Under the pieces are notes generated by a model. The model searched no databases and was not told the DNA's origin. It was given only the letters and a program-made list of their open reading frames with translations. DNA of 64,000 bases from Vibrio algicola. Its GTDB lineage: Bacteria; Pseudomonadota; Gammaproteobacteria; Enterobacterales; Vibrionaceae. Shown here piece by piece: positions 49,577 to 60,334 of this stretch. How positions within the stretch are numbered: position 1 is the first letter of the stretch; every line of letters starts with the position of its first letter. A program made the position numbers and the translations under genes. The stretch spans positions 992,001 to 1,056,000 of the forward strand of contig NZ_CP045699.1 in assembly GCF_009601765.2 (NCBI RefSeq). Reading direction: 5' to 3'.

Positions 49577-49586
49577 TAAGTACCTT
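49577..49586. other. Candidate left attachment repeat in the rluE ribosome-binding site
   Basis: TAAGTACCTT (AAGGTACTTA on the rluE strand) is the rluE ribosome site, 3 bases from its ATG. A second copy at 60012-60021 is followed by a similar A-rich stretch ending in ATGT on both sides. This is the best match I found between the two flanks, but it is short. Confidence 0.45.
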
Positions 49587-49712
49587 AAAAAATGTGTTGA
49601 CTAAGTGAATGGGTAGGATATAACTAGAAACCTTGGTATTACTGGATTTATGGTTACTCGCGAGGATAGCCAGAAAGCAATAATTCAAACGTTTTTAACT
49701 ATCGGATGTTAC

Positions 49713-49742
49713 TTGACGTGTTACATGAAACACGAGTAACAC
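49713..49742 (+). promoter_or_regulatory. Putative satellite integrase promoter with operator-like dyad
   Basis: TTGACG (49713-49718), an 18-base spacer and TAACAC (49737-49742). The spacer contains GTGTTACATGAAACAC (arms GTGTT and AACAC), which a regulator could bind. GAGG lies 9 bases before the ATG at 49761. Confidence 0.5.
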
Positions 49743-49760
49743 GATCATCGAGGCGACACT

Positions 49761-50981
49761 ATGAAGCTAATTAAGAAGCACTTAGACAGTATCGAACGCA
49801 ACGGAAAGCTGGTGCAGTACACAGAAGAAAGCTTAACTTTTAGAATGACACCAAGCGGTCATAAAAGCTGGCAGTTTAGATACAAGTCACCAATCACTCA
49901 CAAGATCCGACTACTTAAGATTGCAGATTATCACATTCTAACGATCACACAAGCACGCTCTATTTGTCGTGATTTATTGGCTCAAGTAGCGGAAGGGCGA
50001 GATCCGCACATATCGAAGGGCGGCAACATTCCGACGTTAAATGAATGTTTCGAACGCTGGTTAGTTGTTAGCAAGTTCAGCCGCACGACTGAGCGAACAT
50101 ATAGAAATATCTGGAGCAACCACTCGGGCTATGTAAAGAGTGCGTTATACACAAAGGTGGATAGACGTATGATCATAGACTATGCAAGGGCAAACATTGA
50201 ATCACACGACTTGAAGCGATTTTTCTATACGATAATTGCAGGTGTCACGAAGTGGTGTGAATCTGAATATCTGGACTTAGATAGCTCACAATTTCAGGGA
50301 TTGTTAAAGCTTGAACGTAAGCCCGACACAAAAGAGATGAAGTACATCACAGCCGACAGGTTGCCCGAGTTTATCAGCGGAGTAAGCAAATGCGGCTTAG
50401 ATGATAATCGAAAGATAGCGACCTTGTTATTGTTAGTGTGGGGCGTTCGTATCCAGTCGTTGCTCAATATGAAGTGGAAGGATATAGATCTAGCTGGTGG
50501 AGTTGCGACGATATTCGAAACGAAGGTCAATACTGTCGTTAGAATTCACATGACAGAATTGATTAAAGGCTGGTTTGAGTCAATGCAGAACGGTAGACAG
50601 CAGCCAGATCATTATATATTTCACGCTAGACGTAACTTAGACAAGCCAAGGGATCGGCAGTTTATAACTAGTGTTTATGATGCGATAAACGAGACAGAGA
50701 CGACCCCGCACCGATTGAGATACACGTTTTCGTCAATTCTGAATACAGCATCGTTCGACCCTTTAATGATAGAAACGTGTTTAAGTCATAAGGTAATGAG
50801 TGATATCAGTCGGATATATAACAAAGCGGATTACTTAGAACAGCGAAAGCCGCTTTATCAGTTTATGAGCGACCTTGTCCAATGCGGGGGGCACGTAGAA
50901 CGTGTGGAAGCGGTAAGTGAAGTTAATAACCAAAGTGGGGCTGGTGCTGGTGGTTGGCGACAGAGAGGTATTGAGGTGTGA
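49761..50981 (+). CDS. Satellite tyrosine integrase, P4-type with N-terminal arm-binding domain
   Basis: 406 residues. The DUF4102-like arm-binding start reads LTFRMTPSGHKSWQFRYKSP and ITQARSICRDLLAQVAEGRDP. The core-binding domain is about 100-190. The catalytic part has LVWGVRIQSLLNMKW (Arg), TPHRLRYTFSS (H-x-x-R), LSHKVMSDISRIYNK (His, Tyr). It is unrelated in detail to the prophage integrase and lies 175 bases from the proposed left end. Its stop overlaps the next gene. Confidence 0.88.
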   Translation: MKLIKKHLDSIERNGKLVQYTEESLTFRMTPSGHKSWQFRYKSPITHKIRLLKIADYHILTITQARSICRDLLAQVAEGRDPHISKGGNIPTLNECFERWLVVSKFSRTTERTYRNIWSNHSGYVKSALYTKVDRRMIIDYARANIESHDLKRFFYTIIAGVTKWCESEYLDLDSSQFQGLLKLERKPDTKEMKYITADRLPEFISGVSKCGLDDNRKIATLLLLVWGVRIQSLLNMKWKDIDLAGGVATIFETKVNTVVRIHMTELIKGWFESMQNGRQQPDHYIFHARRNLDKPRDRQFITSVYDAINETETTPHRLRYTFSSILNTASFDPLMIETCLSHKVMSDISRIYNKADYLEQRKPLYQFMSDLVQCGGHVERVEAVSEVNNQSGAGAGGWRQRGIEV

Positions 50982-51286
50982 TCAGGGTAATAGCATTACT
51001 TTTGTTTTGGTGGGCTGGTGGTGCAATGGCATCACCGGATTACAGTGTTTTGAAAGCGCATACTGGAGGGATCGCAGTTAATGAAAGCGGCACTACTGTT
51101 TTTAAATTGTCAGATGGAACCGAAAAGCCAGCCGTAAAAAAAGAGTGGCCGAGTGCAGCGCCAAAATTTGATAACTCAGTTAAGTTACCGCCAAAACCGC
51201 GCTGGTCAAGTTCCGGCACTGAAACGAAAACATACAATATACGCAAGATAAGCAGTCATAGTTATGAAGTGCGTACATATAATTAA
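50978..51286 (+). CDS. Small secreted protein coupled to the satellite integrase
   Basis: 102 residues starting at a GTG that overlaps the integrase stop (GTGTGA). The signal peptide MIRVIALLLFWWAGGAMA is followed by SPDYSVLKAHTGGIA, and a Pro/Lys-rich soluble part with Ser/Thr-rich end. No Cys or known domain. Co-expression with integrase suggests a gene used in the integrated state, perhaps at the cell surface; this is inference. Confidence 0.6.
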   Translation: MIRVIALLLFWWAGGAMASPDYSVLKAHTGGIAVNESGTTVFKLSDGTEKPAVKKEWPSAAPKFDNSVKLPPKPRWSSSGTETKTYNIRKISSHSYEVRTYN

Positions 51287-51502
51287 TCACACTTTTTTTA
51301 CGATCTTATATAACTTTTGGTTATATTGTGGTGATGCGTTATACAGCCTACGTTTGACCTTTAAATCTACTTAATTTCATTTGAAAAATAAATGTTGACT
51401 ATTCGATAATATTATTTATTAAAAATTGAATGTTGTTTTATTCTCTAATCTCAATCGAGACTTAGAGCGTTAAGATTAACCAGTTTTACAGAAGAGGTCG
51501 CG

Positions 51503-58413: not shown

Positions 58414-58671
58414 ATGAACCCACTAATCACGAAACTAGACACGATCTATAAGCCGATTGTGAAAGGTAGCCAAGCTGAGCAATTAGGACTCACAGAGCAG
58501 CAAGCTGCCCGACCATTTATTACTCGTTACACATACGATGGAAAGGTCGGATATTACGGTCGTTTTTACGGCTCAACAATCGAGAGTGGCAGCACAAGCG
58601 GTCGTGATTGGGCGACACTGTGGAGCGATTGGAACGCTGACACAACAAACGTGCTAGTTACGACCATTTAG
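58414..58671 (+). CDS. Small satellite protein before the capsid gene
   Basis: 85 residues, ATG directly after the previous stop. YKPIVKGSQAEQLGLTEQQA then RYTYDGKVGYYGRFYGSTIE, with aromatic-rich turns. May be a head decoration or connector protein, judged only by position. Confidence 0.55.
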   Translation: MNPLITKLDTIYKPIVKGSQAEQLGLTEQQAARPFITRYTYDGKVGYYGRFYGSTIESGSTSGRDWATLWSDWNADTTNVLVTTI

Positions 58672-58708
58672 CACATCTTTTATATTAATTTTTCAGGAAG
58701 TAAAAACA

Positions 58709-59710
58709 ATGAGTATTCAGCAAATTATTAAAGCAGCAGCTAACGCACAAGGCACGATTGGTTACTTTGCAAAAAGTGAAGTACCGATTAATGAAACTGG
58801 AACAGGAACCAACGCGGTATTAATTCAAGACCAGTTATCGAGCTTGATCACGCCCAATCAGCCAGCCAGTGCACTATCTCTATTTGCAGATGCAAGCGTC
58901 AAAACCGTCGATCTGAACAAGACAGCTTCAATCCCAATCAGTGGTGATATTGACGGATGCGGTTTTGTCGGTGAAGGCGAAATGATTCCTGTAGTCAAGG
59001 GAATAATCACGGCAAAACGCCTCGGGGCACAGCATAAACTTGCTTGTATCGCAAACGCCACACGCGAAAGTCTGGACGGCTCAAACGGTCAATTAGAGAG
59101 CTTTATCAGTCAGTTTGTCATTGGTCGCTCAATTAATCGCGCACTAGAGCAAAACTTGCTTTCAACGACTACTGAATCGACACGCAACCCAGTCGGATTG
59201 CTGGCAACGGGTTCTAACGTAGAAGTAGCAGCAACGGCAACAAATCGTGAGTCTATTTTCATTGATGAAATCGGCAAGAAATTAGCATTCAACCAGAAAG
59301 TATTTATCGTGGTGCCACCAGCTTTGCTAGGTTTTGCAATGGTTGCGCTGAATAAGAACTTGATCAGTTCTGAATTGTTTGAACTGCTACCAAGTGCAGA
59401 GTGCGCAGATGACAACATTCTGATAATTGGTAATAATGATTTAGTCGGTGCGGCTGATGGTAATTCACTTGAGATTATCGCAGATAAACAAACAGCGATC
59501 GTACAACTTGACGGGAACGACCCAGCACCAAAATTGGTTGCTCGTGGTTCCAATGCTGGTGGTCTTGCTAAGTATGCCCAACAAACTGGCGTATCAATCA
59601 CAAGCGGTCTGCAACAAGAAATCGTAAGTTACAAAGCACAATTGAATATTTCATACGAGTTAATCACTCCGGTGACATTGATTAAAGTCGCACCGAGTAC
59701 CAACCCATAA
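58709..59710 (+). CDS. HK97-fold major capsid protein of the satellite
   Basis: 333 residues. The N-terminal part with ETGTGTNAVLIQDQLSSLIT and SIPISGDIDGCGFVGEGEMI (P-domain strand), RALEQNLLSTTTESTRNPVG (spine helix region) and ALLGFAMVALNKNLISSELF are typical of HK97-type capsids. The delta/scaffold region is short. Unlike the P2-type capsid of the prophage, so not derived from it. GGAAGT precedes the ATG. Confidence 0.82.
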   Translation: MSIQQIIKAAANAQGTIGYFAKSEVPINETGTGTNAVLIQDQLSSLITPNQPASALSLFADASVKTVDLNKTASIPISGDIDGCGFVGEGEMIPVVKGIITAKRLGAQHKLACIANATRESLDGSNGQLESFISQFVIGRSINRALEQNLLSTTTESTRNPVGLLATGSNVEVAATATNRESIFIDEIGKKLAFNQKVFIVVPPALLGFAMVALNKNLISSELFELLPSAECADDNILIIGNNDLVGAADGNSLEIIADKQTAIVQLDGNDPAPKLVARGSNAGGLAKYAQQTGVSITSGLQQEIVSYKAQLNISYELITPVTLIKVAPSTNP

Positions 59711-59732
59711 TAACTTGTTGTAACTTGCATAC

Positions 59733-59760
59733 AAGGCTATCCATTCGGGTAGCCTTTTTT
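59733..59760 (+). terminator. Terminator of the capsid module
   Basis: AAGGCTA and TAGCCTT around a 10-base loop, then TTTT. It is followed by further small dyads (AAAGTCG/CGACTTT at 59849-59867) near the right end of the element. Confidence 0.8.
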
Positions 59761-60334
59761 ATTGGAACCGAACAAAAGGAGAGAGATTGCTATTTTTGAG
59801 GTCTAGAATAAAAAAAATTTTCCCAGAGAAAACCCCAGATCTGGAAATAAAGTCGTTTTTCGACTTTTGGCAAGTTGGCTAAAAAAAAAGGTAAATAAAT
59901 CTAAAGATGATATTCATCACAGATCCGCAATGTTACCCCACATGTCACTTGGGCGTTATTTGGAGTGGTTAAAGCATTGATATTAAATGAAGTTATGAGG
60001 GTTAGAAAGTATAAGTACCTTGCAAAAATGTAAACAAAATTAGAGCCTAAGTTTTACTAAAATAGGATTTAAGCTATTATGGTGCGCGCTGAAAACATAA
60101 TAACAGACTCAATCATTAAGTTTGTTTAAATTCGTCTGAGACAGATCAGAAAGAATACATAACAAAAATTACGTCAGCTTAGCGATAGATTCTAACCCAG
60201 ATTTTATAACGCAAGAAGGCCATCACGAGGAGAGGATGGATCTCCCAACGATCCCCTCTAGAGACCACTGCTTATTTGCTTCAAACTCTCTGTTTGAAAT
60301 GCATCGCGGTTCGATAAATATATAGGGAAATTTA
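59761..60334 (+). promoter_or_regulatory. Right end of the satellite and icd upstream region
   Basis: No gene seen. 59761-60011 would belong to the element. 60012-60021 repeats the left TAAGTACCTT. From 60022 on is the icd leader, with a GAGAGGAT/ATCCCCTC hairpin around 60232-60258 and a GGGAAA ribosome site before the ATG at 60335. Otherwise nothing to name. Confidence 0.5.

Follow-up and report, generated by a model that had tools for sequence, protein, structure and literature searches.

A satellite-like island of Vibrio algicola with an HK97-family capsid module and no recognised portal or large terminase

A 10.4-kb island between rluE and icd

We analysed a 64,000-nucleotide stretch of Vibrio algicola, here called the window, which covers bases 992,001-1,056,000 of contig C1 in a 3.51-Mb genome of three contigs, two of them chromosome-sized. 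The interval between rluE and icd holds a discrete 10.4-kb insertion (window 49577-60021; island 1) with genes for integration, replication, a probable small terminase (TerS) and an HK97-type protease and capsid, the main genes all being co-oriented (Table 1). A 10-bp direct repeat, TAAGTACCTT, bounds the insertion, its left copy lying immediately 5' of the inferred start codon of rluE. A match to rluE was present in 31 of 31 genomes; 15 loci were fetched, one of them the window's own, and in all 14 remaining relatives the site was empty, with icd within a few hundred bases of rluE. An earlier note on this DNA had placed a satellite-like island between these two genes, and the repeats and empty sites bear that placement out.

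Island 1 has its own integration and replication genes. The integrase carries the P4-type arm-binding domain that had been proposed for it. The replication protein, first described as a DUF3987-like helicase, is a primase by strong matches to PHROG families, but its DUF3987 match (25.8 bits) falls just under the 27-bit cut-off, so that the family label is borderline. Directly 3' of this gene lies the predicted iteron origin, with copies of GATATCGGG on either side of an AT-rich tract. An integrase together with a primase that is followed by iterons around an AT-rich tract belongs to the definition, in the broad sense, of phage-inducible chromosomal islands (PICIs) given in the text available from PMC6092414, and island 1 has this arrangement. 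Among 50,697 phage records the primase had 45 matches, all below 60% identity and none covering 80%.

Table 1 Features of island 1 in window coordinates. ORF, open reading frame; att, attachment site.
Feature	Position	Strand	Evidence or remark
Left att core TAAGTACCTT	49577-49586	.	10-bp direct repeat with 60012-60021
Tyrosine integrase, P4-type arm-binding domain	49761-50981	+	PF00589 Phage_integrase 2.9e-17; PF13356 Arm-DNA-bind_3 1.7e-11; phrog_1 1.6e-33
102-aa ORF	50978-51286	+	Signal-peptide-like start (by eye); no Pfam or PHROG family match; putative cargo
HNH-family endonuclease-like protein, 270 aa	51570-52382	+	phrog_953 HNH endonuclease 1.9e-66
Replication primase/helicase, DUF3987-like	52535-54382	+	phrog_25777 DNA primase 6.4e-49
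Replication origin region	54383-54967	.	GATATCGGG iterons on both sides of AT-rich tract (~54578-54682); four Chi octamers
106-aa ORF	54968-55288	+	Partner gene kept in sister island, 33% identical
256-aa ORF, undescribed family	55285-56055	+	No Pfam, PHROG or NCBIfam family
Probable P27-type small terminase (TerS), 159 aa	56305-56784	+	Terminase_4 E=0.083; phrog_83 TerS 0.13; both sub-threshold
111-aa ORF	56777-57112	+	Overlaps TerS end; no significant Pfam or PHROG family
Four DNA palindromes, ~24 bp each	57170-57356	.	Island 1 only; not in equivalent sister stretch
Structured leader RNA, ~136 nt	57458-57593	+	Directly upstream of protease gene; long terminal stem
S78 (HK97-type) prohead protease	57621-58208	+	PF04586 9.1e-5, 23.1 bits (cut-off 21); phrog_617 2.1e-9
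79-aa ORF	58174-58413	+	85% identical in sister; no PHROG match
85-aa ORF	58414-58671	+	78% identical in sister; no PHROG match
HK97-family major capsid protein, 333 aa, without delta domain	58709-59710	+	PF05065 2.8e-7, 30.7 bits (cut-off 24.2)
Right att core TAAGTACCTT	60012-60021	.	Other copy of the 10-bp direct repeat

A capsid module conserved in a sister island

Both the protease and the capsid score above their Pfam cut-offs, in line with the HK97 assignment of the earlier note, and the island thus has the major capsid and head maturation protease that capsid-forming PICIs (cf-PICIs) carry. Protease residues H42, S99 and E131, which we take to be catalytic, fall in columns invariant with five aligned phage proteases. 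Searching the genome with the capsid revealed a second copy, 87% identical, near 524 kb on contig C2. It lies in a sister island whose genes run, in order, integrase, lipoprotein-like ORF, 102-aa protein, primase, homologues of the 106- and 256-aa proteins, HNH nuclease, TerS-like protein, 130-aa protein, protease, two small proteins and capsid, followed by the island end. Gene order is common to both islands and the integration site differs: read from the ORFs of its flanks, both of which encode LILNRWVL, the sister appears to split an HPP-family gene.

Between the two islands the ratio of non-synonymous to synonymous substitution rates (dN/dS) is lowest in the protease (0.089), followed by the capsid (0.112), the 85-aa gene (0.133) and the 79-aa gene (0.136), with synonymous divergence (dS) of 1.34, 0.68, 1.28 and 0.76, respectively; in the integrase, TerS and 106-aa genes synonymous sites are saturated. 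On these ratios the four genes from protease to capsid are under strong purifying selection, and the low values together with the kept protease residues therefore indicate a capsid module in use.

The capsid departs from the HK97 pattern at its N terminus. Positions 106-249 of TIGR01554 match capsid residues 30-179, and when the protein is aligned with four phage capsids it has a gap where their delta region lies; because profile position 106 already falls at residue 30 and the alignment shows this gap, the canonical HK97 scaffold (delta) domain is missing. A scaffold may instead come from the small proteins or from a helper phage. The 85-aa product is a candidate decoration or separate scaffold protein, and the 79-aa ORF probably starts at an internal ATG at 58210, past the protease stop.

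The replication modules have been swapped. The sister primase matches DUF5906 (2.1e-17) rather than the DUF3987-like type, each primase is followed by a different repeat set, and the two integrases are 47% identical. Found in the sister only are the lipoprotein-like ORF and the HNH nuclease (phrog_144, 2.2e-13; one match among the phage records), which adjoins the TerS-like gene; the sister is without the 270-aa HNH-type protein. The 102-aa protein (sister copy L004 17966-18277) is 89% identical with a dS of 0.18, far less diverged than the capsid module, as if by recent exchange or gene conversion between the islands. Relatives of the 256-aa protein were found only in the sister and in Vibrio sp. 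S11_S32; in the sister homologue (L004 13949-14681) the C-terminal part matches in another frame. Vibrio sp. S11_S32, known here from its proteins because none of the collections searched contained its DNA, also has a TerS identical to that of the sister at 154 of 166 residues.

Phage modules not found in the islands

Main ORFs were scanned with Pfam, PHROG and NCBIfam; for the 79- and 85-aa ORFs the scans used NCBIfam, PADLOC and PHROGs. ORFs below 79 aa and antisense ORFs were listed, and the small ORFs and gaps were read by eye. In the main ORFs of island 1 the profile scans yielded no credible match to any family of portal, large terminase (TerL), connector, tail or lysis proteins, in agreement with the gene deficit first described, and Pfam and PHROG scans of the sister found neither portal nor TerL. 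Stray matches were at noise level: a head-tail connector profile in the island 1 primase and a baseplate profile in the sister TerS-like protein (E=0.16 each). The portal and connectors of cf-PICIs are likewise without a credible match in the main ORFs of island 1 or in the sister.

TerL was also sought across the whole genome. PF03354 had no match; phrog_2 matched at four places (in the P2-like prophage of the window, in two Mu-like prophage copies and, weakly, at one more) and phrog_15 at one further place, a lambda-head prophage, so that the TerL of cf-PICIs was seen in neither island. The P2-like prophage keeps the name given by the earlier note, the Mu-like prophages are named from their ORFs, and the lambda-head prophage alone was profiled. 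The check suggested beforehand, profile searches for portal, TerL and connector families, thus uncovered no remnant in island 1 or its sister; for decayed-prophage remnants in general, none was seen in main ORFs by profile or in small ORFs and gaps by eye.

A probable small terminase

The 159-aa protein is the weakest gene call. It scores 13.7 bits against Terminase_4, whose curated cut-off is 24.7, and its top Pfam row is another sub-threshold family, GspA_SrpA_N (0.036). Terminase_4 is the best Pfam family of the position-equivalent proteins in three other islands (E=0.005, 0.0013 and 4.3e-5; 17.6, 19.5 and 24.3 bits, all below 24.7). One of these is the sister protein, 23% identical to the island 1 TerS and matching at E=0.005 over a similar profile stretch; the protein at 4.3e-5 also matches a PHROG TerS family (3.1e-6). 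The P27-like identity put forward earlier therefore keeps a signal that recurs in four islands, but every score lies under the Pfam cut-off, and we call the protein a probable P27-type TerS on position and recurrence. Alignment of the island 1 protein with PDB sequences gave four matches (best E 1.1), no terminase among them, and the sister TerS had no match among the phage records.

A structured leader RNA before the protease gene

Each island carries a structured leader RNA just ahead of its protease gene, with fold z scores of -6.3 (island 1) and -4.0 (sister) and 0 of 200 shuffles reaching the native fold in each. In the terminal stem, two pairs have changed on both sides and one on a single side with pairing intact, and one inner pair likewise tolerates a change on one side; this is modest evidence because only two sequences can be compared. 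The inner stretch is nearly identical between the islands, and the inner structures predicted for it differ. Rfam listed two sub-threshold matches in 56800-57700, neither overlapping the leader. Nine of 329 genomes matched in a search with the RNA, one being the source genome and the other eight giving pieces of 22-35 bases, and no match was found in the phage, plasmid and viral-contig collections searched.

The four palindromes upstream of the leader in island 1 are a candidate packaging or regulatory site, and as DNA the stretch 57110-57400 folds with z=-8.5. Two of them adjoin a common TAGACCACG sequence. The idea of a genome-wide repeat found no support in the 68 loci searched: exact TAGACCACGNTCNG occurred in four of them, all four being stretches of island 1, and a looser palindrome pattern also matches window positions 14008 and 37183.

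Chi octamers are concentrated in the islands

The Chi octamer GCTGGTGG is the commonest octamer of island 1, where it occurs 15 times, with a single copy in the remaining window; none of 100 window shuffles reached 16. Host density is 0.089 per kb (32 sites in 18 stretches totalling 360 kb), which predicts 0.93 sites in 10.4 kb, and no 10.4-kb host stretch held more than five. Host sites on C1 are polarised: the first seven stretches hold twelve sites in forward and two in reverse orientation, whereas all ten in the last five are reverse. Such strand polarity is expected of a working Chi.

Elsewhere we counted six sites in the sister, 14 in the 36.5 kb of the lambda-head prophage and five in 8 kb of a locus in genome G142 described below. 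Poisson probabilities are 1e-13 for island 1, 4e-4 for the sister and 8e-6 for the lambda-head prophage. No site occurs in the P2-like prophage, the Mu-like prophages or the comparable loci of genomes G223, G163 and G091; for the P2-like or Mu-like prophages a count of zero has a Poisson probability of ~0.06 each. The excess suggests that both islands meet RecBCD as linear DNA, that is, that their life cycles include an exposed linear phase.

Relatives and comparable loci

The capsid is confined to its own genome in the collections searched. Among 5.8 billion proteins two matches were obtained from 3,224 candidates, both from the source genome; 0 of 50,697 phage records and none of the PDB sequences matched; and the single match among 227 genus genomes, like that among 61 relatives, was again the source genome. 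Genome and viral contigs contained no confirmed locus, one pair of these searches being weak (two N-terminal patterns each). The protease matched two of the 50,697 phage records, both Streptococcus prophages, at 30% identity over 68% of its length, and seven viral contigs at 23-29% identity; the six contigs whose ORFs were read by eye looked like ordinary tailed-phage modules. No viral contig matched the 85-aa protein, and no plasmid matched island 1 as a whole.

Capsids of the PF05065 family occur in 14 of 223 genus genomes, grouped as 16 loci. Eight of these have TerL nearby by profile and two (in G224 and G095) have TerL- and portal-like ORFs by eye, leaving six in which neither TerL nor portal was found: the two islands described here and one locus each in G142, G223, G163 and G091. 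In the last four, profile scans covered the ORFs above 190 aa within the presumed island, except the recombinase-like L044 14958-16469, and a minority of the smaller ORFs. The G223 locus has a tape-measure-like tail gene (2.6e-29) and may therefore be a prophage remnant. The G163 and G091 loci have a protease, the latter also an HNH gene, and their proteases weakly resemble that of the sister (G163, 29% identity over 87 residues, 4e-5; G091, 28% over 69, 7e-4). Loci L043, L044 and L045 (G223, G163 and G091) each hold an adjacent pair of capsid-type genes, a long one next to a shorter one of 286-332 aa, possibly a hexamer/pentamer pair. BLAST detects no similarity between the capsids of these four loci and the island capsid, so that capsid genes with neither motor nor portal probably have several independent origins in genomes of this kind.

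Two of these loci have further features. The G142 locus (L042 3680-10674), ~7 kb beside dnaG/rpoD-like genes, contains an integrase, an O-like replication protein, the capsid and repeats at 7726-7822; no protease, portal or TerL was seen in it. Beside the G163 capsid locus lies a KAP-family P-loop NTPase (L044 6257-7813, 3.5e-36), a possible defence cargo.

Candidate helper phages

At ~603-639.5 kb of C2 lies the lambda-head prophage, which looks complete: it has a fused protease-capsid (phrog_617, 1.3e-149), Nu1, GpA, a lambda-type portal, connectors and a contractile tail. phrog_617 is also the best PHROG of the island protease, which resembles the protease domain of this prophage at 23% identity over 75 residues (E=0.007), and both elements are Chi-rich. 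We regard the prophage as a candidate helper. The search for a helper by capsid similarity gave no pairwise match to its HK97-family capsid. Shared DNA was no more informative: neither island had an exact run longer than 17 bp in common with the P2-like, Mu-like or lambda-head prophages, the 17-bp run lying in the host-gene flank of the sister island, and nothing was cos-like. The HK97-type helper that the earlier note envisaged thus has a counterpart in the genome, a prophage with an HK97-family head, but no shared run above 17 bp or capsid similarity links it to the island.

The two Mu-like prophages, recognised by eye (C2 289.7-322.4 kb and 745.0-777.6 kb), are 99.99% identical over at least 32.6 kb in opposite orientation, which points to recent transposition. 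A Mu-like phage is the helper of one PICI bearing a capsid homologue, according to the text available from PMC6092414, and on that precedent the pair are possible helpers.

Discussion

From its sequence, the reading of island 1 as a phage satellite is well supported, because it is a discrete island with its own integrase and primase/origin and a conserved, selected capsid module, and no portal, TerL or tail gene was found; that it builds its own shell is plausible. Put together, our leading interpretation, to which we give a little less than an even chance, is a mobile satellite that makes most or all of its own shell and diverts a helper's motor through TerS. It draws on the sister with the same order, the swapped replication modules, the TerS signal in four islands, the HNH gene by the sister TerS and the Chi excess. 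Growth of a helper phage in the cell would lead to excision and replication of the island, and its TerS, beside which the sister has an HNH nuclease, would steer the helper TerL onto island DNA. The capsid protein, matured by the island protease and scaffolded in trans by one of the small proteins or by the helper's scaffold, would form a small shell, mostly or wholly island-made, around a helper portal and would then take helper connectors and tail, with the leader RNA setting the timing or level of capsid expression. We think it rather unlikely that all parts of a fuller version hold, in which a complete shell meets a helper portal vertex at a chimeric portal-shell joint, an undescribed structured RNA governs capsid expression and the high Chi load shields the DNA from RecBCD.

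Several observations weigh against a self-made shell driven by a diverted motor. No helper emerged from the shared-DNA and capsid-similarity tests on resident prophages. TerS lies below family cut-offs, and a fold search with its structure model (pLDDT 62) gave nothing significant, proteins named TerS appearing only at E>1. The AlphaFold model of the capsid (pLDDT 27) is unusable, so that HK97 membership rests on the profile, and a capsid without a delta domain may not assemble alone. No AlpA/Stl-type regulator was recognised among the island ORFs of at least 79 aa scanned by profile. The apparent frame shift in its 256-aa gene suggests that the sister may be partly decayed, and among the four comparable loci elsewhere three are without Chi, so the pattern is not general to such loci.

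The alternative that survives best is capsid redirection, a close rival that we consider a real possibility. Here the island capsid would join the helper capsid as a minor component, perhaps in the pentamers, and so impose a small head, much as Ccm of SaPIbov5, a capsid homologue in an element without portal or TerL, co-assembles with helper capsid (PMC8569155 and PMC6893505, as far as these sources were available). The helper would give most of the shell, portal, TerL and tail, and the island protease would process its own protein or disturb helper maturation. Island 1 has the same gene deficit as the Ccm-carrying PICIs, its missing delta domain argues against self-assembly, and at three other loci a long capsid gene is accompanied by a second, short one. 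In the accessible parts of the literature, Ccm forms the pentamers and helper capsid the hexamers (PMC8569155), and PmCI172 and EcCICFT073 also encode capsid homologues (PMC6893505, PMC6092414). Against redirection, the same portion of PMC8569155 identifies no protease in SaPIbov5, whereas the island protease has the lowest dN/dS of its module, and it describes a Ccm that keeps the delta domain, which the island capsid has not; deletion of the EcCICFT073 capsid homologue left interference unrelieved in the text seen of PMC6092414. Moreover, no phage with a similar capsid was found among the phage records or, as a confirmed locus, among the viral contigs, and the HK97-family prophage capsid of the genome itself shows no detectable similarity. 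The earlier note had the island replace the shell and the DNA-recognition subunit and borrow the rest: its satellite-like character stands, and it is not obviously one end of a prophage, but a shell wholly its own is called into question by the missing delta domain and the precedent of a co-assembling Ccm.

A self-made shell in a transferred satellite also has to be set against an interference element, an anti-phage defence that poisons head assembly with mis-sized or mis-processed shells and is itself unpackaged. Proteins of this kind could act as a dominant-negative poison of head assembly, and known satellites interfere through capsid redirection (PMC6893505, PMC8569155, in the parts available). 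We find this improbable: the apparently intact replication module, the differing att sites and TerS genes and the Chi enrichment point to transfer, and PADLOC assigned no defence model to nine island proteins and one sister protein, though a capsid poison lies outside that library.

A decayed prophage, one end of a full phage after loss of portal, TerL and tail, was named beforehand as the finding that would overturn the satellite interpretation, and it is very unlikely. In its favour, the genes for the S78 protease, capsid and TerS-like protein are of phage type and stand in phage-like order, the sister 256-aa gene looks frame-shifted, and the tape-measure-like gene kept in G223 shows that loci of this kind can be remnants. 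Two islands at different sites, however, lack the same genes, share one order and have low dN/dS; the gap between TerS and protease holds a 111-aa or 130-aa ORF and the conserved RNA, with no remnant found; and the site is empty in all 14 relatives fetched. HK97-family shells have been domesticated elsewhere, but an encapsulin-like compartment or gene-transfer particle serving the host is scarcely credible here, as the integrase, origin, att repeats and empty sites mark a mobile element and no cargo gene for such a shell was recognised.

If an island-made shell is indeed built around a foreign portal, portal and shell can derive from different genomes, and the island would show which portal-vertex contacts are needed; if helper capsid is redirected instead, the islands add a protease-bearing variant of capsid piracy. 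The two islands, with a shared capsid module and different TerS and replicon, form a natural experiment on helper choice, and Chi load, which can be read from sequence alone, could be scanned for in other satellites as a sign of exposure to RecBCD during the life cycle.

Comparison with known systems

The strategy itself has precedents in Ccm, PmCI172 and PISP TG93; new here are the delta-less capsid, the conserved structured leader RNA and the 15 Chi octamers. TG93, an 11.1-kb element of Vibrio crassostreae and so far reported from Vibrio alone, carries capsid E, a head maturation protease and a small terminase and has no tail genes in the text available from PMC13230959, so that the more minimal strategy proposed when the island was first read is in itself not new. 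Island 1 resembles TG93 in its capsid, protease, small terminase and lack of tail genes; TG93, however, is a plasmid with no detected integrase and a PF03864 capsid, whereas island 1 is integrated, has an integrase and encodes a PF05065 capsid, and is not a TG93-like PISP.

With SaPIbov5, PmCI172 and EcCICFT073, the Ccm-type and Gram-negative PICIs, island 1 shares integration, its own replicon, a capsid homologue and predicted helper dependence, here judged from genes alone. It differs in having its own S78 protease, a delta-less capsid (Ccm keeps the domain) and a TerS-like gene (EcCICFT073 has none), and no AlpA/Stl was recognised among its scanned ORFs. The cf-PICIs carry capsid, protease, portal, connectors, both terminases and HNH, as set out in the available part of PMC10690885. 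Island 1 and its sister resemble them and the cf-PISP TG54 in their PF05065 capsid, head maturation protease, TerS-like gene, HNH (in the sister) and lack of tail genes; cf-PICIs also have the portal, connectors and large terminase, none of which was found in the island. P4-like satellites share the Arm-DNA-bind_3 integrase and primase-helicase, and we know of no capsid gene in P4. P4 redirects the P2 shell through the scaffold Sid (PMC10690885, available part). PICMI, like island 1, is a small satellite of Vibrionaceae, as described in the accessible text of PMC10803314.

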